Shown piece by piece: positions 2,624-16,166 of a DNA stretch of 57,494 nt. A program made the translations under genes and the position numbers. The number at the start of each line of letters is the position of its first letter. Positions within the stretch are counted from its first letter, which is position 1. The notes beneath the pieces are model-generated. The model worked only from the letters and a program-made list of their open reading frames with translations, had not been told where the DNA came from and made no database searches. The stretch comes from Bacteroidales bacterium (GTDB lineage: Bacteria; Bacteroidota; Bacteroidia; Bacteroidales; WCHB1-69), in contig JAFYAW010000003.1 in NCBI GenBank assembly GCA_017540505.1, positions 1 to 57,494 on the forward strand, in the 5' to 3' direction.

Positions 2624-3187
2624 ATGAAAAAAAGTACAAAAATTTGGATGGGAATTACAGGTGTCCTGCTCATCGCATTGGGCGTTGTGTGTTTCGTTAA
2701 TCCGCCTGCGACCTTGTTTAGCTTGGCCGTGCTGATCGGTTGCCTCACGCTTGCCGCCGGTATCTCACGCTTTGTGTTTACTTTGCGCACGCAACGTTTC
2801 ATGCCGAACAGTGGCACACGCATGCTCTCTGCGTTGTTGCAAATCCTCGTGGGTATCATCTTCCTTTGCAATTCCATTTGGTTGGCCATCTCGCTGCCTA
2901 TCATTTTTGCTATGTGGGTGATGTTCGAAGGTGTCATGCTCTTTGTCCAGAGCTTTGATTACAAGAAATTTGGATTCCCGTATTGGTGGGCCCTTATGCT
3001 CCTCGGCATTGCTGGCGCCGTCTTGGGATGCCTCGGATTGTATCATTTGGACGCTTCTGGCATCACGCTCTCCTGGTTGCTCGGCCTTGGCCTTGTCCTC
3101 ATCGGTGTGGCCTATCTCGTGGCTCTCTGCGGTATCAACCGTTTCGAGAATACCGTTAAAGACCAAATCGACCAAGTCTTGGGATAA
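2624..3187 (+). CDS. HdeD-like (DUF308) inner-membrane protein
   Basis: The 187 residues hold six predicted transmembrane helices in three pairs, with the family pattern of Gly-rich helices (GVLLIALGVVCF, LGIAGAVLGCLGLY, LGLGLVLIGVAYL) and an NP turn after the first helix. DUF308/HdeD proteins are linked to acid resistance in enterobacteria, but their biochemical role is unclear. It is the first gene of a co-directional run: the sensor phosphatase starts only 10 bases after its stop codon. That context hints at a membrane-stress link. The family assignment is good; function is unproven. Confidence 0.8.
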   Translation: MKKSTKIWMGITGVLLIALGVVCFVNPPATLFSLAVLIGCLTLAAGISRFVFTLRTQRFMPNSGTRMLSALLQILVGIIFLCNSIWLAISLPIIFAMWVMFEGVMLFVQSFDYKKFGFPYWWALMLLGIAGAVLGCLGLYHLDASGITLSWLLGLGLVLIGVAYLVALCGINRFENTVKDQIDQVLG

Positions 3188-3197
3188 AAACAACGGA

Positions 3198-5240
3198 ATG
3201 CCCTCCAAAAAATCGTATGCGGGATTATGGATTATAGTGGTTGCGGCGGTGGTGTTGGAGACCATCTCCTGCATCCAGTATTTCTACAGCCGTGCGGGTA
3301 TTCGTGCCGAAGCAGAACTGCGGGCACAGAGTGAGTTGCGCCGCGCCGAGTTGGAAATCAATGTGGTGATGGTGGAGATGGAAGCCGCGGCAAAGATGTT
3401 AGCCGCTGTGGCGGAGCAGCATATTGACAATCCGGACTCCATAGCCGCGGCTACGCGGATGCTGTTGAATACCATCCGGAATGTGAGTAGTGCCGGCATA
3501 GCCTGCCAGGCAGACCTGTTCCCGGAGAAGGGACGTTGGTACGAGATGTGTAGCAGCCGCCAGCCGGATGGCACTGTCTATACGCGCCAGATAGGAGGGG
3601 CGGACCATGACTATTTCCAGACGGAGTGGTACCACAATGGCCTGACTTTCAACGGTTGCAAGTGGAGCGAGCCCTATATGGACGAATATGGAGCCCGCAC
3701 AATGGTGGTCAGCTGTACGTATCCTGTCCGCAATGGGCAGGGCGACGTGGTGGCGGTGGCCTGTGTGGATGTGTCGCTGAATTATCTACAACGCATGTCG
3801 GAGTATTTGCAAATCTACAAGGACAGCTATTACTCCATCCGCTCCGGCAATGGCTTGGTGATCGTCTCCGGTGAGGATACGGTTCCAGGTCGCGACTATC
3901 AGATTTACAATGAGGACATTGACAAAACGGGATGGAAAATATCGATCATCATCCCAGAGGATGTTATCTTCGCCGACCTCAATCGTGTAGGTATGATTGT
4001 CGGATTGTTGATGCTGCTTGGTCTGGCATTGCTCATCTTTATTGTTTGGTACATCGGGCGCAGCAACAAGCGTCTCATCCGCTCTATTGAAAAAAACCAG
4101 CGCATGGAGAACGAACTTCATGTTGCCCGAACGATACAGATGGCGATGCTGCCGAAAGTGTTCCCTCCGTTTAGCGACCGTCCGGATCTCAACCTCTATG
4201 GCATCGTCAATCCGGCCAAGGAGGTGGGTGGCGACCTGTATGATTTCTTTGTGCGGCAAGACAAGCTGTTCTTCTGTGTCGGCGACGTGAGCGGCAAGGG
4301 TGTGCCGGCCGCACTGCTGATGGTGATGACCCATTCGATGTTCCGCAGCGTCACGGCGCACGAGGAGAACGCGGCAGCCATCGTCAGCGAGATGAACAGG
4401 GCCATCGCCGAGCAGAACACGGAGAATATGTTCCTCACGCTTTTCCTCGGAGTGCTTGACTGCAAGACAGGCCGGCTCGACTACTGCAACGCCGGACATA
4501 ATGCGCCAGTGCTGAAATCAAATGGCCAATGGCAAGTGGTTGATGTTGTGGCGAATCTTCCGTTGGGCGTTGAGCCGGACTTCACATACGAGGCGCAGAC
4601 GACACAGATGGCGTACGACGACCTGCTGTTCCTTTACACCGACGGCCTGACTGAAGCGGAGAACAGCAGCTACGAACAGTTCAAAGACCATCGGATGCTG
4701 CAAAACCTGTCCTCCATGACCTGCAGCCGCCCGCGCGAAATCATCGAAAACATGCAGTTGGGTGTGGAGGCCTTCGTGGACGGCGCTCAGCAGAGCGACG
4801 ACCTGACCATGCTCGCTATCCGCTATCAGACTCCGGCCATCGTCATGCGCAACGACATACAGCAAATTCCCACACTCGCCGAATGGATCGACGGGCTGGG
4901 TATCCCTGACGAACTGAAAATGCCGGTGAACCTCGCCTTGGAGGAGGCGGTGAGCAACGTCATGCTGTATGCCTATCCGAAGGACAAGAGCGGACAGGTC
5001 TTCGTTGAATTCACCCAACACCCAACACTCAACACCCAACATCCAACACTCGTCTTCACAGTCACCGACAGCGGCATCCCCTTCGACCCGACGCAACAGA
5101 AGGAGGCCAACATCACCTTGTCGGCGGAAGAACGGGACATTGGCGGTCTGGGCATCCATCTCGTCCGCCAGCTTATGGACGAAATCCACTATCGACGCGA
5201 GGAGGATAAAAATATTTTAACGTTAATAAAGAAATTTTAA
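3198..5240 (+). CDS. Membrane sensor with PP2C (SpoIIE/RsbU) phosphatase and RsbW-like HATPase domains
   Basis: Order in the 680 residues: TM helix (~9-27); extracytoplasmic Cache-like domain (~30-255); second TM (~257-280); coiled linker; SpoIIE/RsbU phosphatase with metal-binding GGDLYD (344-349, D346) and GDVSGKG (D363); C-terminal GHKL ATPase/serine kinase with an N-box LEEAVSN (E582, N587) and a GGLGIHLV glycine loop. Proteins joining a PP2C phosphatase and an RsbW-like kinase, such as SypE of Vibrio and CrsR of Shewanella, set the phosphorylation state of a STAS partner. The adjacent STAS gene at 5274 is the obvious substrate. The ATG at 3198 lies 10 bases after the HdeD stop. A five-copy heptamer repeat (5013-5047) adds a Thr-Gln-His-Pro-rich stretch inside the kinase domain. 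Confidence 0.9.
   Translation: MPSKKSYAGLWIIVVAAVVLETISCIQYFYSRAGIRAEAELRAQSELRRAELEINVVMVEMEAAAKMLAAVAEQHIDNPDSIAAATRMLLNTIRNVSSAGIACQADLFPEKGRWYEMCSSRQPDGTVYTRQIGGADHDYFQTEWYHNGLTFNGCKWSEPYMDEYGARTMVVSCTYPVRNGQGDVVAVACVDVSLNYLQRMSEYLQIYKDSYYSIRSGNGLVIVSGEDTVPGRDYQIYNEDIDKTGWKISIIIPEDVIFADLNRVGMIVGLLMLLGLALLIFIVWYIGRSNKRLIRSIEKNQRMENELHVARTIQMAMLPKVFPPFSDRPDLNLYGIVNPAKEVGGDLYDFFVRQDKLFFCVGDVSGKGVPAALLMVMTHSMFRSVTAHEENAAAIVSEMNRAIAEQNTENMFLTLFLGVLDCKTGRLDYCNAGHNAPVLKSNGQWQVVDVVANLPLGVEPDFTYEAQTTQMAYDDLLFLYTDGLTEAENSSYEQFKDHRMLQNLSSMTCSRPREIIENMQLGVEAFVDGAQQSDDLTMLAIRYQTPAIVMRNDIQQIPTLAEWIDGLGIPDELKMPVNLALEEAVSNVMLYAYPKDKSGQVFVEFTQHPTLNTQHPTLVFTVTDSGIPFDPTQQKEANITLSAEERDIGGLGIHLVRQLMDEIHYRREEDKNILTLIKKF
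5013..5047 (+). repeat. Five tandem heptamers inside a coding sequence
   Basis: There are five consecutive 7-mers of the form A(C/T)(C/T)CAAC. They encode about residues 606-617 of the phosphatase/kinase as a TQHPTL-type duplication while keeping the frame (with flanks about 42 bases, 14 codons). The repeats resemble the intergenic heptamer arrays of this window. Confidence 0.85.
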
Positions 5241-5273
5241 TAGGGATACTTATATTCTGGATAAATTGAAATT

Positions 5274-5576
5274 ATGACAACTCAAATTCAAGAAAACGGC
5301 AACCAGATCATTGCCAAATTCTCCGGCAGGCTTGACACCGCCGCCGCCGTGCAGACCGCCGAGGATGTGAAACTTTTGCAGGAAGCCGCAAACAAGGTGA
5401 TTGTCCTGGACTGCAGCGAGCTCGAATATATTTCCTCGTCGGGTCTGCGCATCTTCCTTGGCATCCGAAAAGAGGCTGCCAATCACGGCAGCAAGGTCAT
5501 AGTCCGCAACATCAACGCCGACATCCGCCAGGTCTTCATGATGACTGGCTTTATCAGTCTTTTTGAAATACAATAA
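5274..5576 (+). CDS. STAS-domain anti-sigma factor antagonist
   Basis: This 100-residue single STAS domain resembles SpoIIAA/RsbV/SypA. It has a GRLDT start of strand 2 (18-22), VIVLDCSELEYISSSGLR (42-59) with the phosphorylatable Ser in the SSG motif (S55 or S56), and a closing helix. STAS proteins of this type bind a partner only in one phosphorylation state. Its modifying enzyme is probably the product of 3198-5240. No RsbW-type anti-sigma gene stands alone nearby, so the downstream target is open. Only 2 bases separate it from the alarmone synthetase, which makes co-translation likely. Confidence 0.93.
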   Translation: MTTQIQENGNQIIAKFSGRLDTAAAVQTAEDVKLLQEAANKVIVLDCSELEYISSSGLRIFLGIRKEAANHGSKVIVRNINADIRQVFMMTGFISLFEIQ

Positions 5577-5578
5577 AT

Positions 5579-6661
5579 ATGGATCCGCATACCGAAATCA
5601 TCTTGGCGGAGTACGACCAGCAGTTGCCGCTTTTCCGGCGATTGGAACGCATCGTGCAAATCACGCTACAGGATATCCTGGATAACAACGGACTGGCGGT
5701 GACGGCTGTCAGCACGCGCGTGAAGACACGCGAGAGCCTAGCCGGCAAGTTGGAGCTTAAAGGGGACAAGTACCAGTCCATCAGAGACATTACGGATATC
5801 CTCGGGGCGCGCATTGTCACCCTTTATACGGATGACGTGGACCGTATAGCCGCCATGGCGGAGCAGATTTTCGACATCGATTGGGAGAATTCCGTCGATA
5901 AGCGCCGCCTGCACAGCACGGACAGCTTTGGCTACAACTCATTGCACTATATTTGCCGTCTGCCCAAGACGCTGGTCAACGAGCCCGAATGGCCGCAACT
6001 GAACGAGGTGCGTTTCGAGCTGCAACTGCGGACCACTCTACAGCACGCGTGGGCATCCATCAACCACGACATCGGCTATAAGACGGGTGTGGAGATACCG
6101 CATGTCTATATCCGTCAGATAAATCGTCTGGCGGGTATGCTGGAGATGGCGGACGACGAGTTCAGCCGCATCCGCACGGAGATCACCAACTACCGCCGGC
6201 GCGTGCAGCAGCTTGTACAAAATGGTGAACTGGACGATGTGCAGTTGGACGGCGACACCTTCCGAAGCTATTTGGAGGCGCAGCCGTTCCGTCTGCTCAA
6301 CCATCGCATCGCCGCCATCAACCAGGCGGAGATACAGGAGGTGCCGTTGACCGGCTACTTGCGTGTGTTTGTGGCCTTTGGCTGCAAGACACTCGGCGAC
6401 GTGGACCGCATACGTGCGCAATATACGGACCATGCCTATACCCTCGCACGTCATCAGCTCGGCAACACCGATCTTGACATCCTTTCCTCGTCCGTCGGCA
6501 TACAGAATATCTGCATCGTCTGTATCCTCGCCAACGGTGGCGGCAAGATCGGCCTTACACGACTCTTCAACGCCCTTAACGGCGAAAACCCGCAAAATGA
6601 GCTGTTGGCGGAAATGACCTATAATCAGGCAATGAATTTACCTTTTATGCAGAATAAATAA
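5579..6661 (+). CDS. RelA/SpoT-type (p)ppGpp synthetase domain protein
   Basis: These 360 residues carry an alarmone synthetase domain at about 30-190. Hallmarks are RVKTRESLAGKLELKG (substrate-binding Arg/Lys), DILGARIVTLYTDDV (catalytic Asp region), GYNSLHYI, and the FELQLRTTLQHAW stretch with the expected Glu just before it. No HD hydrolase or TGS domain is present, so it is a small-alarmone-synthetase relative with a ~150-residue C-terminal extension of unknown role. It should transfer pyrophosphate from ATP to GDP/GTP. Its stop codon overlaps the next start by one base (TAATG). Placement straight after a STAS gene is unusual and suggests post-translational control. Confidence 0.9.
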   Translation: MDPHTEIILAEYDQQLPLFRRLERIVQITLQDILDNNGLAVTAVSTRVKTRESLAGKLELKGDKYQSIRDITDILGARIVTLYTDDVDRIAAMAEQIFDIDWENSVDKRRLHSTDSFGYNSLHYICRLPKTLVNEPEWPQLNEVRFELQLRTTLQHAWASINHDIGYKTGVEIPHVYIRQINRLAGMLEMADDEFSRIRTEITNYRRRVQQLVQNGELDDVQLDGDTFRSYLEAQPFRLLNHRIAAINQAEIQEVPLTGYLRVFVAFGCKTLGDVDRIRAQYTDHAYTLARHQLGNTDLDILSSSVGIQNICIVCILANGGGKIGLTRLFNALNGENPQNELLAEMTYNQAMNLPFMQNK

Positions 6662-7500
6662 TGGAAGCTATAAAAATAGACCTCAACGACTATGTGCGTA
6701 CGGGCGAAGGGGCCAACGGCGCCAGTTACGATCACAAGACGGACAAGAGCATCATGCTCAAGTTGTATTTCCACAACTTTGAGGCCGCCCAGGTGGAGTT
6801 GGAGATGGCGCAGAAAGTGTATGCGATGGGAGTTCCCACCCCCGAGCCTGGCGATCTGGTGACCGACGGCAAGGCGATGGGCATCCGTTTCCGCCGTATC
6901 GAAGGCAAGAAATCCTATTCGCGGGCCTGCGGTGACAACCCCGAGCGCACCGAAGAGTATGCCCGGGAGTTTGCGCAACTGTGCCGAAAACTCCATGCCA
7001 TCCATGTGGACACCACACAGTTCGAGAATGTCAAGGACCGTCTGTACAAGCTGCTGGCGGACAATCCCTTCTTTACCGACGAACAGAAACAGAAAATACA
7101 CGATTTCATCGCTGCCGCCCCCGATGCCGACACTGCCATCCACGGCGACCTGCAGTTCAGTAATGGTATTTTTGTGGAAAAAGATGGTGTGCGCACGCCC
7201 TATTTCATCGACCTCGGCGATTTCTGCTATGGCTATCCGATGTTCGACATCGGCATGGTCTATCTATGCTGCTGTCTTAACGACGAGTCATGGACGCGGG
7301 ATGTGTTTCACATGACAAATGCCACGGCCAGACGCTTTTGGGACGCTTTTGCACCGGAATATTTCGGACCTAATGCGGATCTTGCCGAGATTGAGAAAAC
7401 CGTCCGCATTTATGCTGGCCTGAAGACACTCATTGTGGAGCGCGACACGCACCGGCCCATGCCCGAGTTCCGTGCCATGCTGGAGGGGACGGTGTATTAG
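6661..7500 (+). CDS. Phosphotransferase-fold kinase (APH/choline-kinase-like)
   Basis: The 279 residues have the Brenner motif HGDLQFSN (161-168; catalytic D163, N168) and a DLGD metal-binding motif (184-187), as in aminoglycoside phosphotransferase/choline kinase folds. It resembles the TIGR02172 subgroup, whose substrates are unknown. There is no signal peptide, so it is cytoplasmic. It shares one base with the synthetase stop codon, implying translational coupling. The context argues against a simple antibiotic-resistance role, though small-molecule phosphorylation remains possible. Downstream comes a repeat-rich gap. Confidence 0.82.
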   Translation: MEAIKIDLNDYVRTGEGANGASYDHKTDKSIMLKLYFHNFEAAQVELEMAQKVYAMGVPTPEPGDLVTDGKAMGIRFRRIEGKKSYSRACGDNPERTEEYAREFAQLCRKLHAIHVDTTQFENVKDRLYKLLADNPFFTDEQKQKIHDFIAAAPDADTAIHGDLQFSNGIFVEKDGVRTPYFIDLGDFCYGYPMFDIGMVYLCCCLNDESWTRDVFHMTNATARRFWDAFAPEYFGPNADLAEIEKTVRIYAGLKTLIVERDTHRPMPEFRAMLEGTVY

Positions 7501-7704
7501 TTCAAAGTTGAGAGTTAATAGTTTAGAGTTTAGAGAAAGCCAATAATCAACTCCCAATGCCCATAACACCTTAACTCCTTATTTTCTTAACTTCTTACCT
7601 ATTGTCACCCCCCCCCAAAAAAAAAAATATATATATATATAAGCCAACGGCCAACGGCTAAAGGCTAACGGCCAAGTTGTTTTACGGAAAAGAAATAAAA
7701 AAAA
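7501..7704 (+). repeat. Repeat-rich gap: heptamers, C9, A11 and (TA)7 tracts
   Basis: Four heptamers (GTTGAGA, GTTAATA, GTTTAGA twice; 7507-7534) start 7 bases after the stop codon. Then come a C9 run (7608-7616), an A11 run (7617-7627), seven TA dinucleotides (7628-7641) and five GCCAACG-like heptamers (7643-7677). The hydrolase gene begins at 7705. The homopolymer and dinucleotide runs are slippage-prone. No TAnnTTTG promoter is visible. Confidence 0.85.
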
Positions 7705-8283
7705 ATGGCAAACAAATTCATGGATACAGGCCTGCTTGATCGGGCGATTGTTTTTGCGGTTAAGGCGCACCACAACAGTGAGCGGCGTGGCAAGGGTTTT
7801 CCGTATATCGTGCATCCGATGGAAGCGGTTGAGATAGTGGCCACCATCACGCCCGACCAGGAACTGCTGGCTGCTGCGGCCTTGCACGACACCATTGAGG
7901 ATACGGACGTAACGATGGAACAGATACGTGCGGAGTTCGGCGACCGTATTGCGAACCTCGTGCAGGCAGAGAGCGACCAGTTTGTAGAGGGTGTAAGCGA
8001 AGCGGAGAGTTGGCACGACCGCAAGCAGGCGGCAATTGACCGGTTAGCTGCCGCTCCGCACGACGCGAAGATAGTGGCGTTGGGCGACAAGCTGAGCAAT
8101 ATGCGGGCCATTTGGCGCGATTATCAAGTTGAAGGCGATGAATTGTGGAAGATTTTCCATGTGACGGACAAGGCCTCGCACGAATGGCATTACCGCGGCC
8201 TGGCTGCGTCGTTGAGTGAACTGGGTGACACCTTCGCCTATAAAGAATTTGTGCGGTTAATAGATGAAGTTTTTGAAAAATGA
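7705..8283 (+). CDS. MESH1-like small alarmone hydrolase (HD domain)
   Basis: This 192-residue HD-domain protein matches the hydrolase half of RelA/SpoT. H37 (in IVHPMEAV), H61-D62 (LHDTIEDT) and D128 (LGDKLSN) fit the Mn-binding set, and E65-D66 fits the catalytic ED pair; the HD and ED numbering coincides with human MESH1. It should remove the 3' pyrophosphate of ppGpp-like alarmones, opposing the synthetase encoded at 5579. The start ATG follows a run of nine A's. Its stop overlaps the next start (ATGA). Alternative nucleotide pyrophosphates, or NADPH as shown for MESH1, could also be substrates. Confidence 0.9.
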   Translation: MANKFMDTGLLDRAIVFAVKAHHNSERRGKGFPYIVHPMEAVEIVATITPDQELLAAAALHDTIEDTDVTMEQIRAEFGDRIANLVQAESDQFVEGVSEAESWHDRKQAAIDRLAAAPHDAKIVALGDKLSNMRAIWRDYQVEGDELWKIFHVTDKASHEWHYRGLAASLSELGDTFAYKEFVRLIDEVFEK

Positions 8284-9020
8284 AAGTCAAAATTACAGCC
8301 ATACGGAAGGCCGATTATACGGATTTGCAGTCGGTTTACGAAAATCCCATCGAACATGCTTGTGATGTGCGCGAGGGGCAGATATGGATTTCTGAAGACG
8401 GCGAAAAGCCGGACGGTTTGTGTGATAGTGCGTGGGAATCCATGCGCTGGTTTGTGCAGGAGTTGGCGGCCGGGCGCGGCAATTTCTACGATGGCTGGAT
8501 GAAGAATCCCAATTCGGCTATGATCAGCTGCAACGACGGCTTCCGTCCGGTGAGTTTCTATTTGGAAAGAATGGAAGAAACTGTCCGACCGTTCAGGACA
8601 ATCTTGCTGGTGGTCTGCTGCTTCCTGATGATGGCTTGCAGTAGTAGTGACCATCTGACGGGTGGAAGTCGTGTGAAGACAGTGTCAGACACTTTGTGGG
8701 CATACAGCATCTCCCATCCCGACGGTTTTACGGTGAATATTACTACGCTAACAGAACCCACTGAAGGAGTGGTGGTTGCGTATGCCGCCACACAGGGATG
8801 CCACTCTCAAAAACAGCTCAATCGTGTGGTACGTCATGCGATGCGGCACGACGGTTATGTGGGGGGATGGCTCGACAAAACCGACAGTCTTTACTATTTT
8901 GACAGTTCGCGCATCTTTCCGGAGGATTCTCTCGACGCTGCTATCCGCTTTGGTGTCAAGAATAAACAGATAGCGATATATGTCCTGTCGGAAGGTCGCG
9001 AGGTGCGGCTGGACAAATAA
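8280..9020 (+). CDS. TIGR04076-family domain fused in frame to a lipoprotein
   Basis: Residues 1-97 match the small TIGR04076 family (MKVKITAIRK start; KPDGLCDSAW; GRGNFYDGW; ISCNDGFRPVSFYLER), whose members normally end there. The frame then continues into a classic lipoprotein signal, MEETVRPFRTILL to LMMACSSS, and a ~125-residue exported domain containing GGWLD, YYFDSSRIF and NKQIAIYVL. An internal ATG at 8571 would give this lipoprotein its own start. So this is either a stop-codon loss that merged two genes, or one message with two translation starts. A lipobox 110 residues into a protein cannot act as a normal signal. The first start overlaps the hydrolase stop (ATGA). Confidence 0.78.
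   Translation: MKVKITAIRKADYTDLQSVYENPIEHACDVREGQIWISEDGEKPDGLCDSAWESMRWFVQELAAGRGNFYDGWMKNPNSAMISCNDGFRPVSFYLERMEETVRPFRTILLVVCCFLMMACSSSDHLTGGSRVKTVSDTLWAYSISHPDGFTVNITTLTEPTEGVVVAYAATQGCHSQKQLNRVVRHAMRHDGYVGGWLDKTDSLYYFDSSRIFPEDSLDAAIRFGVKNKQIAIYVLSEGREVRLDK
8571..9020 (+). CDS. Possible internal-start lipoprotein
   Basis: Starting at the ATG at 8571 gives a 149-residue protein with a short charged N-terminus, a hydrophobic core (TILLVVCCFLMM) and a lipobox ending in Cys at about residue 24. This is exactly what an exported lipoprotein needs. The mature domain is seen in other Bacteroidales secreted hypotheticals; its function is unknown. It is listed separately because the fused reading at 8280 would bury this signal. 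Confidence 0.55.
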   Translation: MEETVRPFRTILLVVCCFLMMACSSSDHLTGGSRVKTVSDTLWAYSISHPDGFTVNITTLTEPTEGVVVAYAATQGCHSQKQLNRVVRHAMRHDGYVGGWLDKTDSLYYFDSSRIFPEDSLDAAIRFGVKNKQIAIYVLSEGREVRLDK

Positions 9021-9021
9021 A

Positions 9022-9059
9022 TTTTGTACCTTTGCCGCACAATGCGGAAAGGTACAAAA
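9022..9059 (+). promoter_or_regulatory. 38-bp palindrome overlapping the ECF sigma promoter
   Basis: A 12-bp arm, TTTTGTACCTTT (9022-9033), has its perfect complement at 9048-9059. Inside it CCGCA (9035-9039) pairs with TGCGG (9043-9047) around CAA. Only G9034 is unpaired. The left arm contains the -7 box TACCTTTG (9027-9034), so a protein bound to the palindrome would cover the promoter. The sigma-factor ATG follows at 9061. Confidence 0.75.
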
Positions 9060-9060
9060 A

Positions 9061-9645
9061 ATGCAAACTGACACCAACATCTCCCGACTGGATGAATCAC
9101 TATTTGAGCGGCTGTTCTTTGAATACCAGCCCCGATTGGTGCGCTTTGCCATGCACTTTGTGGATGAAGAGACAGCCGAGGATATTGTGCAGAACTGCTT
9201 CCTGCGATTGTGGAACAAACGCGAGAACACAATCCTTACGAACGCTAAAGGACTGCTTTTCATGATGGTGCGCAATGAGTGCCTCAACGAGCTGAAGCAC
9301 CGCGTGGTGGCCAGCACGGATTCGTTGGATGTCCTCGTGGAAGAGAAAGGCTCGGAGCAGCTGTACTGGCAGGACTTCGCCCCGGGTGCGGAGGCTATTC
9401 TCGTTGGCAAGGAACTGCAACAGTTGGTGGATGAAGCCCTGATGCAGACAAGTGAAAAGTCGAGAGAGATATTCATTCTCAGCCGCAAAGATGAACTGAA
9501 ACCCAAGGAGATTGCCGAGCAGATGGGCATTTCGCGGCAGGCGGTGGAGAAGCATATCCATGCCGCCTTGGACATTTTGAAAAAATATTTATTAAAAAAC
9601 TTTATTTTGATGGTTGCATTTTGCATCCTTTGGTTGTTGTTCTGA
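9061..9645 (+). CDS. ECF sigma factor (Bacteroidetes sigma-70 family)
   Basis: The 194 residues contain region 2 (about 12-75, with EDIVQNCFLRLW) and region 4 (about 120-175, with SREIFILSRKDELKPKEIAEQMGISRQAVEKHI, the last half a helix-turn-helix). The final ~17 residues, from KNFILMVAF to LWLLF, are strongly hydrophobic, like a membrane helix. The ATG at 9061 is preferred because upstream in-frame codons run through the promoter palindrome. The FecR anti-sigma gene follows after 13 bases. By family, it directs RNA polymerase to surface-signalling target genes and is held inactive by the FecR partner. Confidence 0.92.
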   Translation: MQTDTNISRLDESLFERLFFEYQPRLVRFAMHFVDEETAEDIVQNCFLRLWNKRENTILTNAKGLLFMMVRNECLNELKHRVVASTDSLDVLVEEKGSEQLYWQDFAPGAEAILVGKELQQLVDEALMQTSEKSREIFILSRKDELKPKEIAEQMGISRQAVEKHIHAALDILKKYLLKNFILMVAFCILWLLF

Positions 9646-9658
9646 CAAAGAAGCACTT

Positions 9659-10660
9659 ATGGATATAGATTTCTACAAAATATCACAAACCTATTTTCAA
9701 GGCACAATAACGGACGAGGATGAGAAACTCCTCTCCCGATTCCTGCAAGAAAATGAACAAAACCGCGCCCAGTTCCAACAATGGGAGGCAGAGTGGCGCG
9801 ATGCGTCCCGGAAGCAGGCCTCCGACAAGACTTCCGATGCCTGGAAACAGATGATGGAAGCCCAGAAAACCAAAGGAAAGAAGGAAACAAGTGAAGTTGC
9901 TTTAACGGTTGAAAAAGACACTTTCTCGAAAAAAAGATATTGGTACTATGCGGCTGCTGCTGTGGCCTTGCTGCTCATCGGTTCTGCCCTGTGGCTGTTC
10001 TTGCCTAAAGGCACACAAGAGCCCTTCTTCGCGCAGACCGCCCCGCACGAGCAGCAGACAGTGACGCTGCCCGACGGCACACAGGTGACGCTCAACGGCG
10101 GATCCAAACTCACTTGTGCCAAGGACTTTGGCAAGCGTGACAGGAACATCACCTTCGAGGGCGAGGGCGTGTTTGATGTGCAGAAAGATGCGAAGAAACC
10201 ATTTGTCATCCAGGTGGGCGACTACAACGTCACCGTATTAGGTACGCAGTTCAACCTCTCTGCTTATCAGCAGGATGAGGCCTATACGCTTGCGCTGATG
10301 GAGGGCTCCGTGAAGATCAAGTACAAGCAGGATTCCGTCATGGTAAAACCTGACGAGCAGGTGCGTTTCGACCGAGAATCAGCCACCTTTGCCAAAGAGC
10401 CGGTGCAAGCCGCTGATGCCGATGCCTGGACGGAAGGGCGGTTGGCCTTCGAGAACATCCCGTTGCGCGACCTTACTCGGAAGTTGGAGCGGATTTACGA
10501 CGTGCGCATCTCCATTGCCGATGACCAGATTGCAAACGAGCAGGTCTATATCTCGATTTCCACGGAGGAATCTTTTGGGGACGTGTGTGCCGCATTAGAG
10601 GCTTTGCTGCCGATTTTCATTCAAGAACAAAACGGAATTTATACTATTGCCAACCAGTAA
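9659..10660 (+). CDS. FecR-family anti-sigma factor (with DUF4974)
   Basis: Order in the 333 residues: cytoplasmic N-terminal domain (1-92) that would bind the sigma factor; one TM helix (about 94-115, YWYYAAAAVALLLIG); periplasmic FecR beta domain with LPDGTQVTLNGGSKL and GEGVFDVQKD; C-terminal DUF4974 (about 265-333, IPLRDLTRKLERIYDVRI). Such proteins transmit a periplasmic signal from an outer-membrane STN domain to the ECF sigma. The next gene, one base away, encodes a protein with such an STN domain. The ATG at 9659 was chosen because upstream in-frame codons overlap the sigma gene. Confidence 0.93.
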   Translation: MDIDFYKISQTYFQGTITDEDEKLLSRFLQENEQNRAQFQQWEAEWRDASRKQASDKTSDAWKQMMEAQKTKGKKETSEVALTVEKDTFSKKRYWYYAAAAVALLLIGSALWLFLPKGTQEPFFAQTAPHEQQTVTLPDGTQVTLNGGSKLTCAKDFGKRDRNITFEGEGVFDVQKDAKKPFVIQVGDYNVTVLGTQFNLSAYQQDEAYTLALMEGSVKIKYKQDSVMVKPDEQVRFDRESATFAKEPVQAADADAWTEGRLAFENIPLRDLTRKLERIYDVRISIADDQIANEQVYISISTEESFGDVCAALEALLPIFIQEQNGIYTIANQ

Positions 10661-11868: not shown

Positions 11869-12294
11869 ATGAAAGTCAAATGTATAGAATCATCCGCGAA
11901 AAACTTTGATCTGTCAGATGTGAAAACAGTCTTTAACCGCAGGTATGAATATGATGTTGTAATTGGGGATGAGTATCTCGTAATGGGTTTCAGAATTGAT
12001 TGGGACAGTTCATGTATCTATTATCTGATTAATGTTTCGGGAATAGAAGCAGGCTGGTATCCTTATCTTCTCTTTGAAACGGTTGACGATGATATACCTT
12101 CTGATTGGCATGGCTGTAGTTTTCATCGAAGAACCAAATTTGTGGAAGATGTGCGTTTTATTTGCGGTTTTAAAGAACTTTGCGATCCGCAATTTTATTA
12201 CAATCTCGTTTTGGGTGAAGAAAAGGAGCAAAGAATCTATTTCAGGAGGAAAATGGAGTTGGAGGAATATTATTCGGAAAAAGATTTACAGTAG
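11869..12294 (+). CDS. Hypothetical cytoplasmic protein
   Basis: I do not recognise this 141-residue protein. It begins MKVKCIESSAKNFDLSDVK and is rich in aromatic and acidic residues, with six Cys and no signal peptide or TM helix. It is AT-richer than its neighbours and lies between two convergently placed genes, which suggests an accessory gene. No promoter box is obvious. The stop codon lies in a 17-bp tandem duplication. A longer reading from 11794 would overlap the upstream gene and has no support. Confidence 0.6.
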   Translation: MKVKCIESSAKNFDLSDVKTVFNRRYEYDVVIGDEYLVMGFRIDWDSSCIYYLINVSGIEAGWYPYLLFETVDDDIPSDWHGCSFHRRTKFVEDVRFICGFKELCDPQFYYNLVLGEEKEQRIYFRRKMELEEYYSEKDLQ

Positions 12295-12316
12295 CAGTAG
12301 ATTTACAGTAGCAGTT
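12283..12316 (+). repeat. 17-bp tandem duplication across a stop codon
   Basis: GATTTACAGTAGCAGTA (12283-12299) is followed directly by GATTTACAGTAGCAGTT (12300-12316). The first copy holds the TAG stop (12292-12294) of the hypothetical gene. The duplication leaves the stop intact. Confidence 0.85.
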
Positions 12317-12333
12317 TATTAGTGCTGTTGCAA

Positions 12334-13671
12334 TCACAATAATCCTGTCATATACACCGGCACAAGCAAGGTCCTCCCGTCTTTGCGTAAATCTTTGGTA
12401 TAAACCAGATACCGTTCACCGATACGGGAGGAATACTTTTTACAGAACTCGTCAAGCGAACGGTGCGTGTTGTATCCTTCTGATTTGACCTCTATTGGGA
12501 CTATCTTGTTGCCGCGGGACAGAAGAAAGTCTATCTCATAATTGTGTTTGTTGCCGTCTGGGAATGTGTGATAAAACAAACGATTTCCGGATGCGGCAAG
12601 CATTTGTGCTGCCATATTCTCATACACGTAACCCAAATTGACGGACAGTTTGTCATTGAGCAGTTTCTGATATATAACATTGTTTGAAAAGGAATTGTCC
12701 CAGAATGCCATCGTGACGAACAATCCTGTATCGGCCATATATATCTTGAATGCGGAACGGTTGGTCGACAAATCCAATCCCACATTGGGGTCGTTGGCGT
12801 GATAGCAGACATTCACCACCTTGCTGTCCTGCATCATAAAGATAAGGTTGTCCAGCTGCTTTGCCCGTGTTTTTTCAATCACCGTAGATGGTTGAAAGCG
12901 GTTTGCGTTACGTGATAGTTGCGACGGAACTGCCATAAACATCGACTTCGCTTTACCGGTTTTGTCTATCTTCTGGAAATCGTTCACATACAGGCGGATA
13001 ATTCCCCTTTTGGTTTTGTCAACAGCCGAAAGGTCTCTGGTCTCCAAATACTTGCTCACTGCCTGCGGCATCCCGCCAACAAGCATATACAGTCGGAAAT
13101 CCCGCATCAGTTTGCGGTTGACAGCGTCTCCAAAACCCTGCCTGCTTTTCAGAGCATCCCGCAACAAATCCATACTCCCCAAGTCTCCCATTGCCCAAAG
13201 GAACTCTTCGTAATCCATAGGAAAAAGCTCCAGCACTTCTTCCTCTGACGGGATGATGATTTTTTCAACATTTTGGTGAATGCTGATAAGCGATCCTGTC
13301 TCGATATAATCATACCGTCCATCTTCCACCAATGCCTTTATCGCTTGGCGAGCAATGGGGAATCTCTGCACTTCGTCAAAAATGATGGCAGTTTCCCGCT
13401 CGTGGAGGGGAATTCCTTTCAGCAGCCTCAACCGGTTGAAGAAAGTGTGCATATCTGACATGTCCTCAAACAGATCCATTTCTTCCTTCGACGCTTTTGA
13501 GAAGTCAAATAGGGCAAAGGACTTGTATTCGTTTTTCGCAAATTGGCGCACAAGGGTAGACTTGCCCACACGTCGTGCACCCTCGATCAACAAAGCCGTT
13601 TCGCCCTGTGACTCTTGTTTCCATTGCAGCATTCGTCCGTATGCCTTTCGTTGGAAATAATAATCTTCCAT
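12334..13671 (-). CDS. AAA ATPase with DUF4143 domain
   Basis: The 445 residues have a Walker A motif GARRVGKST (31-39), a Walker B AIIFDE (95-100), then an ETGSLIS sensor-like stretch, and a C-terminal DUF4143 region that ends in the PD-(D/E)XK-like IDFLLSRGNKIVPIEVKS. This architecture is common and mobile in Bacteroidetes; its role is unknown, and members are often treated as archaeal-type/STAND-like ATPases acting alone. The gene points left. Its promoter lies at 13693-13700, and three 33-bp repeats sit just upstream of that promoter. Confidence 0.9.
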   Translation of the reverse strand: MEDYYFQRKAYGRMLQWKQESQGETALLIEGARRVGKSTLVRQFAKNEYKSFALFDFSKASKEEMDLFEDMSDMHTFFNRLRLLKGIPLHERETAIIFDEVQRFPIARQAIKALVEDGRYDYIETGSLISIHQNVEKIIIPSEEEVLELFPMDYEEFLWAMGDLGSMDLLRDALKSRQGFGDAVNRKLMRDFRLYMLVGGMPQAVSKYLETRDLSAVDKTKRGIIRLYVNDFQKIDKTGKAKSMFMAVPSQLSRNANRFQPSTVIEKTRAKQLDNLIFMMQDSKVVNVCYHANDPNVGLDLSTNRSAFKIYMADTGLFVTMAFWDNSFSNNVIYQKLLNDKLSVNLGYVYENMAAQMLAASGNRLFYHTFPDGNKHNYEIDFLLSRGNKIVPIEVKSEGYNTHRSLDEFCKKYSSRIGERYLVYTKDLRKDGRTLLVPVYMTGLL

Positions 13672-13692
13672 ATCAGTCTTTTATTTGAACTG

Positions 13693-13700
13693 CAAAAATA
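13693..13700 (-). promoter_or_regulatory. Promoter (-7 box TATTTTTG on minus strand) of the DUF4143 ATPase
   Basis: CAAAAATA on the plus strand reads TATTTTTG on the minus strand, 22 bases before the ATG at 13671. The 33-bp repeats begin about 36 bases upstream of the box, where an activator or repressor array could sit. Confidence 0.6.
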
Positions 13701-13736
13701 CTAAAAATAAATGAATTATACAATATATTATAAAAT

Positions 13737-13828
13737 AATGTTCCATCAGCGCAGTTTTTATTTACTCGAAATGTTCCATCAGCGCAATTTTTATCTACTC
13801 GGAATGTTTCATCAGCGCAAATTTTAGA
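13737..13828. repeat. Three direct repeats with 33-bp period (iteron-like)
   Basis: Copies start at 13737, 13770 and 13803, exactly 33 bp apart. All share AATGTT(C/T)CATCAGCGCA followed by a T-rich tract; the third copy is cut short at about 13828. There are no unique spacers, so it is not a CRISPR array. A 33-bp spacing is close to three helical turns, which would put binding sites on one face of the DNA. It lies between a leftward ATPase and a rightward glycosyltransferase. Confidence 0.85.
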
Positions 13829-13929
13829 AGAATAATTCAGGTTGCATTTTCTCCAACAGCATTGTTATACCTATAGAACGGCTTGATAAAAGTCTCAAAA
13901 TGGAATGTATAACTTAAAAATATGCTGTT

Positions 13930-15075
13930 ATGAAAATCTTATTTGTCATCGACACCTATCAGACGAACAACAACGGGACGAGCATCTCGGCGCAGCGTTT
14001 CGCTGCTGAACTGCGCAAAAGAGGCCATGAGGTGCGCATCCTCACCACCGGTGAACCTTCTGAGAACATTTACGCCTTAGATGTGTTCAGAATCCCCGTA
14101 TTCCAAGGACTAATCGAGAAACACGGCTTTCAGTTCGCCTCCCGCGAAGCCGATGTGGTGGCCGAAGCCGTCCAATGGGCCGACGTGGTACACTGCTTCA
14201 TGCCCTTCGCGTTAGAGTCCTATGCCAAGAAGATGGCCGACCGATTCGGCAAGCCCGCCACCGCTGCTTTTCACATCCAGCCCGAGAACCTGACCTCTTC
14301 TGTGAACCTCGGCAAGGTGACTTGGATTACCAACGCCGTCTATCGTGTTTTCCGTCGCCGTATCTACGACCGCTTCAAGCACGTGCACACGCCGTCGCAG
14401 TTCATGGCCGACGAGATTACTAAGCGCGGCTACTCTGCCAAAATCCACGTCATCTCCAACGGCATCCAAGACGATTTTGTCTGGACGAAACGTCCGAAGT
14501 CTCCGGAATTTGAAGGCAAAATTCTGATTATGATGGTGGGTCGCCTTTCCGTGGAGAAGCGCCAGGATGTTATCATCAACGCGGTGAAACACTCCAAATA
14601 TGCCGACAGAATCCAGCTCATCTTTGCCGGAAAAGGTCCCAAGTATGAGGACTATATGGAACTCGGTCAGTCGCTGAAGAATCCGCCCATCTTCGGCTAC
14701 TACAACCGTCAGGAACTTATCAACACGTTGGCGCAGTGCGACTTGTACGTCCACTCCTCGGACATGGAGTCGGAGGCCATCTCCTGTATAGAGGCCTTTG
14801 CCACGGGTTTAGTGCCTGTCATAGCCAATAGCGAGCTTTCTGCCACCCCGCAGTTCGCCCTCGACGGCCGCAGTCTCTTCACCGCAGGCAGTCCCAAAGA
14901 TCTCGCTCGCGCCATCGACTACTGGCTCGACAACCCCGCCGAGCGCACCCGCATGGAACGTAAATACGCTGAACACGCCAAACGATACAACATCGACCAC
15001 TCTATCAGCCAGTTTGAGGATATGCTTCAGGAAGCGGTGACAGAGTTTGAACCTGCGGAGTTGATGTATGCGTGA
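13930..15075 (+). CDS. Family 4 glycosyltransferase
   Basis: This 381-residue GT-B enzyme starts MKILFVIDTYQTNNNGTS (donor/acceptor loop) and has the nucleotide-sugar half at about 195-365, with VGRLSVEKRQD and the E-x7-E region DMESEAISCIEAFATG (E near 277 and 285). It resembles glycosyltransferases that act on lipids, such as diacylglycerol glucosyltransferases, but the acceptor cannot be read from sequence. No signal peptide is seen; action is at the cytoplasmic side of the membrane. It stands alone, followed by a REP-like palindrome. Confidence 0.88.
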   Translation: MKILFVIDTYQTNNNGTSISAQRFAAELRKRGHEVRILTTGEPSENIYALDVFRIPVFQGLIEKHGFQFASREADVVAEAVQWADVVHCFMPFALESYAKKMADRFGKPATAAFHIQPENLTSSVNLGKVTWITNAVYRVFRRRIYDRFKHVHTPSQFMADEITKRGYSAKIHVISNGIQDDFVWTKRPKSPEFEGKILIMMVGRLSVEKRQDVIINAVKHSKYADRIQLIFAGKGPKYEDYMELGQSLKNPPIFGYYNRQELINTLAQCDLYVHSSDMESEAISCIEAFATGLVPVIANSELSATPQFALDGRSLFTAGSPKDLARAIDYWLDNPAERTRMERKYAEHAKRYNIDHSISQFEDMLQEAVTEFEPAELMYA

Positions 15076-15090
15076 TTATAAAATGAGAAT

Positions 15091-15118
15091 GTAGAGACGC
15101 GGCGCGCCGCGTCTCTAC
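15091..15118. repeat. 28-bp perfect palindrome, copy 1 (REP-like)
   Basis: The half-site GTAGAGACGCGGCG is followed by its exact reverse complement. The element lies 15 bases after the glycosyltransferase stop. Related palindromes with GTAG/CTAC ends occur at 16163, 52556 and 53852 in this window. It could act as a bidirectional terminator or an mRNA-stabilising hairpin. Confidence 0.9.
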
Positions 15119-15146
15119 TAAACCGAAAACCTTAAAATCAAAAATC

Positions 15147-16166
15147 ATGTCCAGAAAAAATCTTATAACCATCAGTTTAATATGCATGGCGGCAATGCTT
15201 TCCGCCCAAACACAGCTTCCCAATTCGGATTTCGAGCAGTGGACTTCCACTGCGGCAGGCAACGCGATGCCCAAATACTGGCACTCCTTCGCGGATGCCG
15301 ACTGCCAGCTAAAAGGGATCTATGCGTGGGGCTGTCCCTGTATGCTTAAGAACCATAGCAACCGCGTGGCGGGACACAGCGGCTACGGTTGCGAAATCTA
15401 TTCCGCCTTCATCGGGGGCGTGGCCTTGGTGAACGGGGTGATGACCACCGGACAGATGCAGTTCGCTACGCCGGATACGAAAAGTGCAGATAATCATAAC
15501 TATACCGACAAGAACAACACTGCCGGACATAATGCCGCCATACCGTTCACCGGCCGCCCCGATTCCGTTTCCTTCTGGTGCAAGTTCGTGATGAAAAATC
15601 CTTCTAACGTGGCGGAGGCCAAGTTCCACCTGCACGGCAACGTGGCCTATAAGGATGTGAGTACGCACCAGTCTGCCACGCCACAAAAAGGCAAGGTCGG
15701 CAATGCGTTCTGCGCGATGAAGGATCCCAACGACCAGAAATGGCACAAATATCAATATAAGTTTACATATTATAACGACCAAAACCAGCAAGTGAGTACC
15801 GCTACCCATCCGAACTATATCTTGGTAACGTTTTCCACCAACAAAATCACAAAGGGTGGAAGCAATGGCGACAAGCTGATCATTGACGACATCAAGATGA
15901 TTTACAACAAACGGTTAGCCTCTTTGGAAGTGGACGGTTTCGCGTTGCCCGATTTCAATCCGGATGTACTTGATTATGAGTTGTATGCAGATGCCAATGA
16001 AATGCCTGTCATTACGGCTACCGCGCAGTCGCCCAATGCCACGGTGCGCGTGGAGCAGGCATCAACAGAAAACGGTCGCACTGCTCGTGTCACGGTCACG
16101 CACGATGACGGGGAGTGGGTTTACACGGTACGGTTCATGCCGTTGGCGCAGATGGCAGGGCGGTAG
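15147..16166 (+). CDS. Secreted PCMD-domain protein
   Basis: The 339 residues include a signal peptide (about 1-20, ending LSAQ). After it comes a PCMD (putative carbohydrate metabolism) jelly-roll domain (about 22-255), recognisable by LPNSDFEQW, PDSVSFWCKF and a closing IIDDIKMIY, and then a ~75-residue Ig-like domain. PCMD proteins are Bacteroidetes surface or periplasmic proteins with a predicted glycan-binding fold; no enzyme activity is established. There is no T9SS tail. The TAG stop codon (16164-16166) lies within a REP-like palindrome. Confidence 0.83.
   Translation: MSRKNLITISLICMAAMLSAQTQLPNSDFEQWTSTAAGNAMPKYWHSFADADCQLKGIYAWGCPCMLKNHSNRVAGHSGYGCEIYSAFIGGVALVNGVMTTGQMQFATPDTKSADNHNYTDKNNTAGHNAAIPFTGRPDSVSFWCKFVMKNPSNVAEAKFHLHGNVAYKDVSTHQSATPQKGKVGNAFCAMKDPNDQKWHKYQYKFTYYNDQNQQVSTATHPNYILVTFSTNKITKGGSNGDKLIIDDIKMIYNKRLASLEVDGFALPDFNPDVLDYELYADANEMPVITATAQSPNATVRVEQASTENGRTARVTVTHDDGEWVYTVRFMPLAQMAGR

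Follow-up and report, generated by a model that had tools for sequence, protein, structure and literature searches.

The stretch of DNA analyzed here (the window) comprises positions 1 to 57,494 of contig JAFYAW010000003.1 (GenBank assembly GCA_017540505.1, Bacteroidales bacterium). It carries a block of five genes encoding a Cache-PP2C-HATPase sensor, a STAS protein of the anti-sigma-antagonist type, a RelA/SpoT-type synthetase (SYN), a kinase-fold protein (KIN), and an alarmone hydrolase (HD) (Table 1). The sequences and their distribution point to a partner-switching module with an alarmone-type pyrophosphokinase as its output, a reading to which a probability of roughly 0.56 was assigned. 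The STAS protein probably acts on the synthetase, and the five genes very likely constitute a conserved functional unit. An earlier note, made from the letters of the sequence, had listed the five genes with their positions and domains; Pfam and NCBIfam matches bore this out, with domain matches above curated thresholds in each gene. Its account of the spacing (2 bases between STAS and SYN, a 1-base overlap of SYN and KIN, and a repeat-rich gap before HD) was also accurate.

Relatives of the block were collected by a contig scan with SYN alone, and the best 80 of the 129 relatives were analyzed. These loci are titled Bacteroidales, Bacteroidetes, Paludibacteraceae, or Bacteroidaceae, and many are ruminant-derived. 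All five genes were present in 64 of the 80. By tblastn, which tolerates frameshifts and contig ends, and where the contig gives room (400, 2700, 950, and 2000 bases for STAS, sensor, KIN, and HD, excluding 2, 7, 3, and 6 of the 80 loci), STAS was found in 78/78 loci, the sensor in 71/73, KIN in 72/77, and HD in 68/74. The sensor of locus L105, which lies downstream of HD, was included in the count, and the two missing cases are L039 and L090. The spacing between STAS and SYN was -4 to 117 bases in 79/79 pairs (78 loci and L107) and at most 7 bases in 62 of them, using script-assigned starts. The spacing between KIN and HD differs widely among relatives, and the repeat-rich gap is not conserved. 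Flanking genes turn over: in a survey of 71 rows with 3 kb downstream and 65 with 3 kb upstream, one phosphatase family occurred in 45 loci and the next family in 11. These counts are lower bounds, given that the longest of overlapping open reading frames (ORFs) was kept and an antisense frame can win, as it did for the extracytoplasmic function (ECF) sigma gene of the window. The earlier note had named loss of the gene order in related genomes as one outcome that would speak against a link between the genes; instead, the five-gene set recurred and persisted through rearrangement. The order is STAS-SYN-KIN-HD-sensor in L105 and, in transcription order, SYN-HD-KIN-sensor-STAS in L106; L107 and L110 encode a HATPase and a Cache-HAMP-PP2C protein separately, followed by STAS, SYN, and an HD-KIN fusion. 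L108 and L109 have SYN-HD with no adjoining switch.

Gene losses are informative about the output. Three loci (L032, L040, and L096) contain only sensor, STAS, and SYN, and their contigs run on for 5-9 kb without KIN or HD (the missing genes could be encoded elsewhere in these genomes, the rest of which was not searched); the next gene encodes a radical-SAM protein in L040 and a transketolase in L096. L071 and L076 lack KIN and keep STAS, SYN, and HD, and in L028, L041, and L062, which lack HD, STAS still lies beside SYN. In L041, the place of the missing HD is taken by an ORF (12010-12636) with a different HD domain (PF01966, 27.3 bits). The synthetase is favored over KIN and HD as the output because the adjacency of STAS and SYN is never lost where it is visible, whereas KIN, HD, or both can be missing.

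The sensor, a membrane protein, matched SpoIIE/PP2C (172.3 bits), HATPase_c_2 (83.4 bits), and MCP-like_PDC_1 (53.8 bits, above cutoff); a dCache_1 match of 30.9 bits fell under the cutoff of 45. The earlier assignment to the SypE/CrsR type holds in that kinase and phosphatase share one chain, but the input here is a Cache-type sensor. Residue conservation was scored over rows drawn from the window and from loci numbered no higher than L110. D346, D363, D482, D534, and D535, which we take to be the metal-binding acidic residues of PP2C, are kept in 79-80 of 80 rows; E582, E583, N587, D624, G626, and G649-G652, presumably the N, G1, and G2 boxes of the RsbW-like serine kinase, are kept in 78/80, and the other two rows are gaps. 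Both sets together are thus kept in 78-80 of 80 rows, the remainder being gaps. The STAS protein matched the Pfam family at 60.5 bits, passed TIGR00377, and has SpoIIAA (1th8) as its best PDB match. The earlier note had left the phosphorylated residue at Ser55 or Ser56. Alignment to SpoIIAA points to Ser55 (82/82 rows; Ser56, 80/82) as the likely phosphoserine, the aligned SpoIIAA position being, as we assume, its phosphorylated serine. With the acidic residues of PP2C, the three HATPase boxes, and a STAS protein with an invariant Ser, the parts of a partner switch appear to be present, and up to Ser55 the mechanism needs no new parts.

Several further observations concern the switch genes. 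The window genome (91% complete) has one SpoIIE and one stand-alone STAS, another STAS lying inside a 573-aa frame. Its second HATPase_c_2 gene (C21) was set aside as a switch part, as it lies amid iron-sulfur ORFs that look hydrogenase-like by eye (L147). At 5018-5055 of the window, in the HATPase domain, TQHPTLNTQHPTL resembles an in-frame tandem CAACACCCAACA-type repeat, and relatives vary there. In L026, a close relative of the window, an MmeI-like restriction-modification gene (6510-9671, a 1,054-aa frame) lies between the sensor gene and STAS. L031 carries a second, divergent Cache-PP2C-HATPase and STAS pair downstream of the block (13409-15741), beside a nonribosomal peptide synthetase (NRPS) gene.

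SYN matched RelA_SpoT at 65.9 bits (cutoff 27) and has no HD, TGS, or ACT domain in its chain, the architecture of a small alarmone synthetase (SAS). Its score against NCBIfam YjbM was 63.8 bits versus a cutoff of 320, which places it outside the RelQ/YjbM equivalog. R47, K49, S53, K57, D73, G76, R78, E147, and Q149 are invariant in 86/86 rows. The donor-site residues of FaRel2 (R64, K66, S70, K74, D90, G93, R95, E145, and Q147; PMC11782079, cited, like all articles given by number here, from excerpts) map to these invariant residues by spacing and motif, and by this alignment the pyrophosphate-donor site of SYN is intact. On the acceptor side, the Lys before GY in RelQ aligns with Asp115 of SYN, itself found in 86/86 rows, which leaves room for more than one reading of the acceptor and the product. 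The likeliest product would be (p)ppGpp or a kindred nucleotide pyrophosphorylated at the 3' position, with (p)ppGpp the first guess on family grounds only. Besides SYN, the window genome has one long Rel frame (719 aa).

Residues 206-360 of SYN form a C-terminal domain, for which the window protein gave no Pfam match at E values up to 1. The domain is 45-69% identical in L105-L110, in all six of which it is linked to HD, and in 20 of 24 relatives without the module there was no C-terminal similarity above shuffles (z below 2). It is conserved in the module lineage and, as judged by these comparisons, is largely yet not strictly limited to it. Because L108 and L109 keep both domain and HD without an adjacent STAS, the domain might have a role with HD in addition to one with STAS. 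Around the relatives L111-L120, L138-L146, L148, and L149, a search at E 1e-4 found no sensor, STAS, KIN, or HD. Another solitary SYN relative (L156:5989-7062, NZ_OY725946.1), 44% identical in the catalytic part, lies by terminase and portal genes on a phage-like plasmid of Bacteroides finegoldii.

KIN matched TIGR02172 at 240.3 bits (cutoff 228.2) and APH at 59.1 bits; its relatives scored 237.8 bits in L107 and, slightly under the cutoff, 223.4 in L105. H161, G162, D163, and N168 are kept in 77/77 rows, and D184 and D187 in 76/77. No plasmid match to KIN was found, and among 395 genomes of the class its only match at E 1e-20 was in the window's own genome. HD matched HD_4 at 72.8 bits, with R27, H37, H61, D62, E65, D66, D128, and N132 in 76/76 rows, and it is a single-domain hydrolase of the RelH/MESH1 type that is fused to KIN in L107 and L110. 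The earlier term "MESH1-like" was loose: the best solved relatives are 7qoc/7qod, 4yf1, and 7qoe, and 7QOD, 7QOE, and Lmo0812 (4YF1) are placed in the MixSpo/RelH family (PMC10434055). With catalytic residues conserved across 76-86 rows with few or no exceptions, the enzymes of the block look active.

Together, these features suggest the following mechanism. Ligand binding at the Cache domain would shift the balance between kinase and phosphatase, and the phosphorylation state of Ser55 would report the outside signal. In one state, STAS would dock on SYN, most likely on its C-terminal domain, and set its activity. The unbroken adjacency of STAS and SYN, the three-gene loci, the conserved extra domain, and precedents from cyclic di-GMP (c-di-GMP) signaling are the basis for proposing this step. 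The direction of control cannot be transferred from those precedents, because unphosphorylated SiaC activates SiaD (PMC8457831) but phosphorylated HsbA binds HsbD (PMC6482189). By analogy with SiaC, the docking state would most likely be the unphosphorylated one, with an effect on SYN that is more likely up than down; activation by unphosphorylated STAS is slightly more likely. The co-encoded hydrolase would remove the product and reset the signal, and KIN may work on or with the hydrolase, to which it is assigned on account of their fusion in one lineage. In its fullest form, the proposal is tentative and falls a little short of even odds: this would be the first partner switch to set an alarmone synthetase, passing from an extracytoplasmic ligand read by Cache through phosphorylation of a STAS Ser to a pyrophosphorylated nucleotide and working separately from the long Rel of the same genome, with the C-terminal domain as docking site, a product that is perhaps not classical (p)ppGpp (Asp115), and a replaceable front end, parts of whose phosphatase-kinase-STAS set would have been swapped among loci with the output genes left in place.

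A number of results weigh against this proposal. The 80 loci were fetched by a single query and are kin, at 65-94% identity. Partial distance correlations over 60 of the 65 complete rows (window included, minus 2 short and 3 near-identical) were 0.63 for PP2C-STAS, 0.46 for the two halves of SYN, 0.41 for Cache-HATPase, and 0.33 for KIN-HD. STAS and SYN showed no excess correlation (raw 0.09 for the catalytic part and 0.21 for the C-terminal domain; partial -0.04 and 0.01); the partial values for STAS with KIN, HD, and HATPase were -0.21, -0.01, and -0.02. The test is weak both ways, because HATPase-STAS, a pair expected to bind, also gave -0.02. Average product-corrected mutual information (about 44 effective sequences) did not single out SYN as the STAS target. 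Identification of the target by distances or covariation thus failed, the signals being PP2C-STAS and, for distances, KIN-HD as well. The C-terminal domain is not unique to the module, an idea that was dropped: among the 24 solitary relatives, L112, L114, and L115 have marginal similarity (z 2.3-3.7 in at least one of two tested windows), and the synthetase of L171, on an Agrobacterium plasmid, has 29% identity over 115 residues, which exceeds 100/100 shuffles and is weak but clear, also by BLASTP. Behind this SYN relative come an unmatched ORF and then a HerA-type (DUF87) gene (L171:5878-10097, NZ_CP011248.1), an arrangement that could be a defense module; the genes named nearby include none for STAS, HD, or a kinase. 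Across the order, the occurrence of strong SYN matches (E at most 1e-124; next 5e-18) and strong HD matches (E below 1e-54; next 2e-17) in the same 7 of 295 genomes counts in favor of the proposal, but two of the seven (G101 and G286) have SYN-HD without an adjoining STAS and a SpoIIE-STAS pair on another contig. Because SpoIIE is common in the order (221/295 genomes), its co-presence with SYN proves nothing and was discarded as evidence.

The switch genes appear to have a history of their own. A divergent STAS type occurs in nine loci (mean identity 60% between types and 79% within); the GRLDT and ISSSGLR stretches and most of positions 80-99 are held in both types. PP2C follows the divergent type and the output genes do not. 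The STAS-type label changes once on the STAS and PP2C trees, a single change on the STAS tree being expected by construction since the label was defined from STAS. On the SYN tree, which was built by a quick method and has stars on 12 of its 57 branches, it changes three times (at least two forced). L045 has the divergent STAS type, yet the SYN tree places it well away from the other eight such loci. Its lean toward the divergent type amounts to 8 to 14 identity points in the first half of PP2C, HATPase, and STAS and 0 to 3 in Cache, KIN, HD, and SYN. A swap of PP2C and STAS alone was abandoned, as the HATPase of L045 shares the lean toward the other type. It would be simpler to assume that a switch cassette was exchanged, but such an exchange is not clean: over the nine loci, the label needs three changes on each of the HATPase and Cache trees and two for the second half of PP2C. 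The docking interface of the phosphatase is reported to overlap that of the kinase only in part (PMC11418112), which fits independent evolution of PP2C-STAS pairs.

An alternative concerns the product rather than the switch, and is compatible with STAS acting on SYN: SYN would be an effector like the toxic small alarmone synthetases (toxSAS), carrying out tRNA 3'-pyrophosphorylation or making (p)ppApp, with HD as antidote and the switch as trigger of a growth-arrest or defense module. The best PHROG of SYN is phrog_9640 (225.6 bits), a phage family of unknown function, and the single PADLOC match of SYN was to PDC-S33 (55.7 bits over 135 residues). The relatives alone on the phage-like Bacteroides plasmid and beside the HerA-type gene on the Agrobacterium plasmid would fit, as would Asp115, a smaller positive patch on the acceptor side being reported for the tRNA-modifying FaRel2 (PMC11782079). 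HD, with its 68 of 74 loci, would be the candidate cognate neutralizer, and FaRel products are neutralized by a co-encoded small alarmone hydrolase (SAH) (PMC11782079). However, the eight Pfam-scanned window proteins include no antitoxin family, unless HD is one; PADLOC gave no match for sensor, STAS, KIN, or HD; and the three loci without HD and KIN would hardly be tolerable with a toxic enzyme unless STAS restrains SYN. On balance, a toxic effector is unlikely.

Less likely still is that STAS targets the degradation side (KIN, HD, or a KIN-HD complex), with the synthetase constitutive or set by small molecules. The HD-KIN fusion and the KIN-HD distance signal would fit, and strong KIN matches (E at most 1e-60) are confined to the 5/295 genomes with a switch-SYN linkage and are absent from G101 and G286, which lack that linkage. 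The only KIN match in G286 is a 75-codon stretch (C1:40375-40599; 42% identity, one internal stop) far from SYN-HD. Against control of degradation, STAS lies beside SYN in the loci lacking KIN, HD, or both (the genomes were not searched elsewhere), and the partial correlations of STAS with KIN and HD are negative. Least probable is that the block is a transcriptional unit only, with the switch target encoded elsewhere and the alarmone genes sharing its promoter: in G101 and G286 the SpoIIE-STAS pair and SYN-HD are on separate contigs, and the pair beside the NRPS gene in L031 shows that such pairs occur in other settings, but the set persists in three other gene orders with STAS never missing where visible in the 80 loci, the sigma and FecR genes of the window are unmatched in relatives, the window genome has neither a further SpoIIE nor a further stand-alone STAS, and both are likewise absent from two genus mates without SYN.

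Table 1. Features of the block and its downstream neighbors (window positions)
Feature	Position	Strand	Basis or remark
Cache (PDC)-SpoIIE/PP2C-HATPase_c_2 sensor, one chain, switch enzyme	3198..5240	+	Pfam; PP2C 4257-4826, HATPase_c_2 4875-5231
STAS protein, anti-sigma-antagonist type	5274..5576	+	Pfam; likely phosphoserine Ser55 (codon 5436-5438)
RelA/SpoT-type synthetase (SYN)	5579..6661	+	RelA_SpoT match 5714-6088; C-terminal domain about 6194-6658
TIGR02172-family APH/kinase-fold protein (KIN)	6661..7500	+	TIGR02172 and APH matches
KIN-HD intergenic gap, repeat-rich, 204 bases	7501..7704	.	Sequence; no conserved element
HD_4 alarmone hydrolase (HD), RelH/MESH1 type	7705..8283	+	HD_4 match; solved relatives
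TIGR04076-type ORF	8280-9020		Overlaps HD end; TIGR04076 domain aa 2-100
ECF sigma factor	9061-9645		Downstream of block
FecR-type gene	9656-10660		Downstream of ECF sigma

The neighbors of the block vary. A DUF308 gene (2624-3187), the first of the stretch considered in the earlier note, is unmatched in 85 relative loci. That note had stated that no sigma factor is encoded here; an ECF sigma gene does lie nearby, but neither it nor the FecR-type gene had a match in the 85 relative loci searched. No cognate sigma or anti-sigma gene is conserved in the locus, the only flanking family in more than 11 loci being the phosphatase, and a sigma target encoded away from the block may be conceived of. 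The phosphatase is a Y_phosphatase3-type gene that follows HD (L097:12504-13394, with the same family in 44 further loci; one member was Pfam-scanned). It is a possible sixth member of the module, perhaps opposing KIN. Where these 45 relatives carry it, the window has the TIGR04076-type ORF, which had no match in the relative loci; by eye, its TIGR04076 domain is joined to a stretch resembling a lipoprotein with its own signal, and the ORF may in fact comprise two separate genes.

Starved ribosomes, transcription of small synthetases, and metabolites are the usual explanations for how alarmone levels are set. If the proposal is true, a phospho-switch plugs an outside signal directly into a synthetase, joining two well-known kinds of bacterial signaling in parallel with the partner switches known for c-di-GMP. 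For uncultured Bacteroidales, many of them from the ruminant gut, it suggests that an outside signal may directly set the starvation alarm. The three-gene loci (sensor, STAS, and synthetase) are small enough for in vitro rebuilding. A search of open-license articles, in which Bacteroides partner switches were also sought, found no system linking STAS or a partner switch to an alarmone synthetase. The earlier statement that no described system links these parts therefore stands for alarmones in that literature; it does not stand more broadly, as partner switches that drive the synthase of a nucleotide second messenger are already known. STAS or STAS-like proteins set a c-di-GMP synthase in BgrV-BgrR, HsbA-HsbD, and SiaC-SiaD (PMC8457831, PMC6482189). 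A 2011 survey of the superfamily gives the typical Bacteroidia set as Rel plus RshB, with one further mark apparently under divRel, and its excerpt describes no switched small synthetase in Bacteroidia (PMC3153485).

Known systems each share part of this architecture. The FaRel toxSAS operon pairs a small synthetase with a co-encoded small hydrolase (PMC11782079), and RelQ, RelP, and Tde-SAS also have SAH partners, encoded in the same genome in the case of Treponema denticola (PMC10434055); the excerpts mention no partner switch for these, and SYN differs in falling below the YjbM cutoff and in having its own C-terminal domain. RsbU-RsbV-RsbW and SpoIIE-SpoIIAA-SpoIIAB share the PP2C, STAS, and HATPase parts, and the STAS protein of the block aligns with SpoIIAA (1th8) and passes TIGR00377, but their target is sigma-B or sigma-F, whereas the sigma gene of the window has no counterpart in the relatives searched. 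In HsbR-HsbA-HsbD and CrsR-CrsA, phosphatase and kinase share one chain and the partner is an anti-sigma antagonist, with HsbD a messenger synthase (PMC6482189); these differ in that HsbR is a response regulator, the other partners are RpoS and FlgM, and the messenger is c-di-GMP. SiaABCD of Pseudomonas aeruginosa (PP2C SiaA, kinase SiaB, STAS-like SiaC, and diguanylate cyclase SiaD) likewise unites a PP2C, a kinase, a phosphorylatable STAS-like protein, and a GTP-using messenger synthase in one operon (PMC8457831), and SiaC docks on the noncatalytic stalk of SiaD (PMC8457831, PMC7647112). There, kinase and phosphatase are separate proteins, SiaC is a DUF1987 protein phosphorylated on Thr68, and the output is a diguanylate cyclase, whereas the present block has a RelA/SpoT-type output, mostly together with a hydrolase and a kinase-fold protein.

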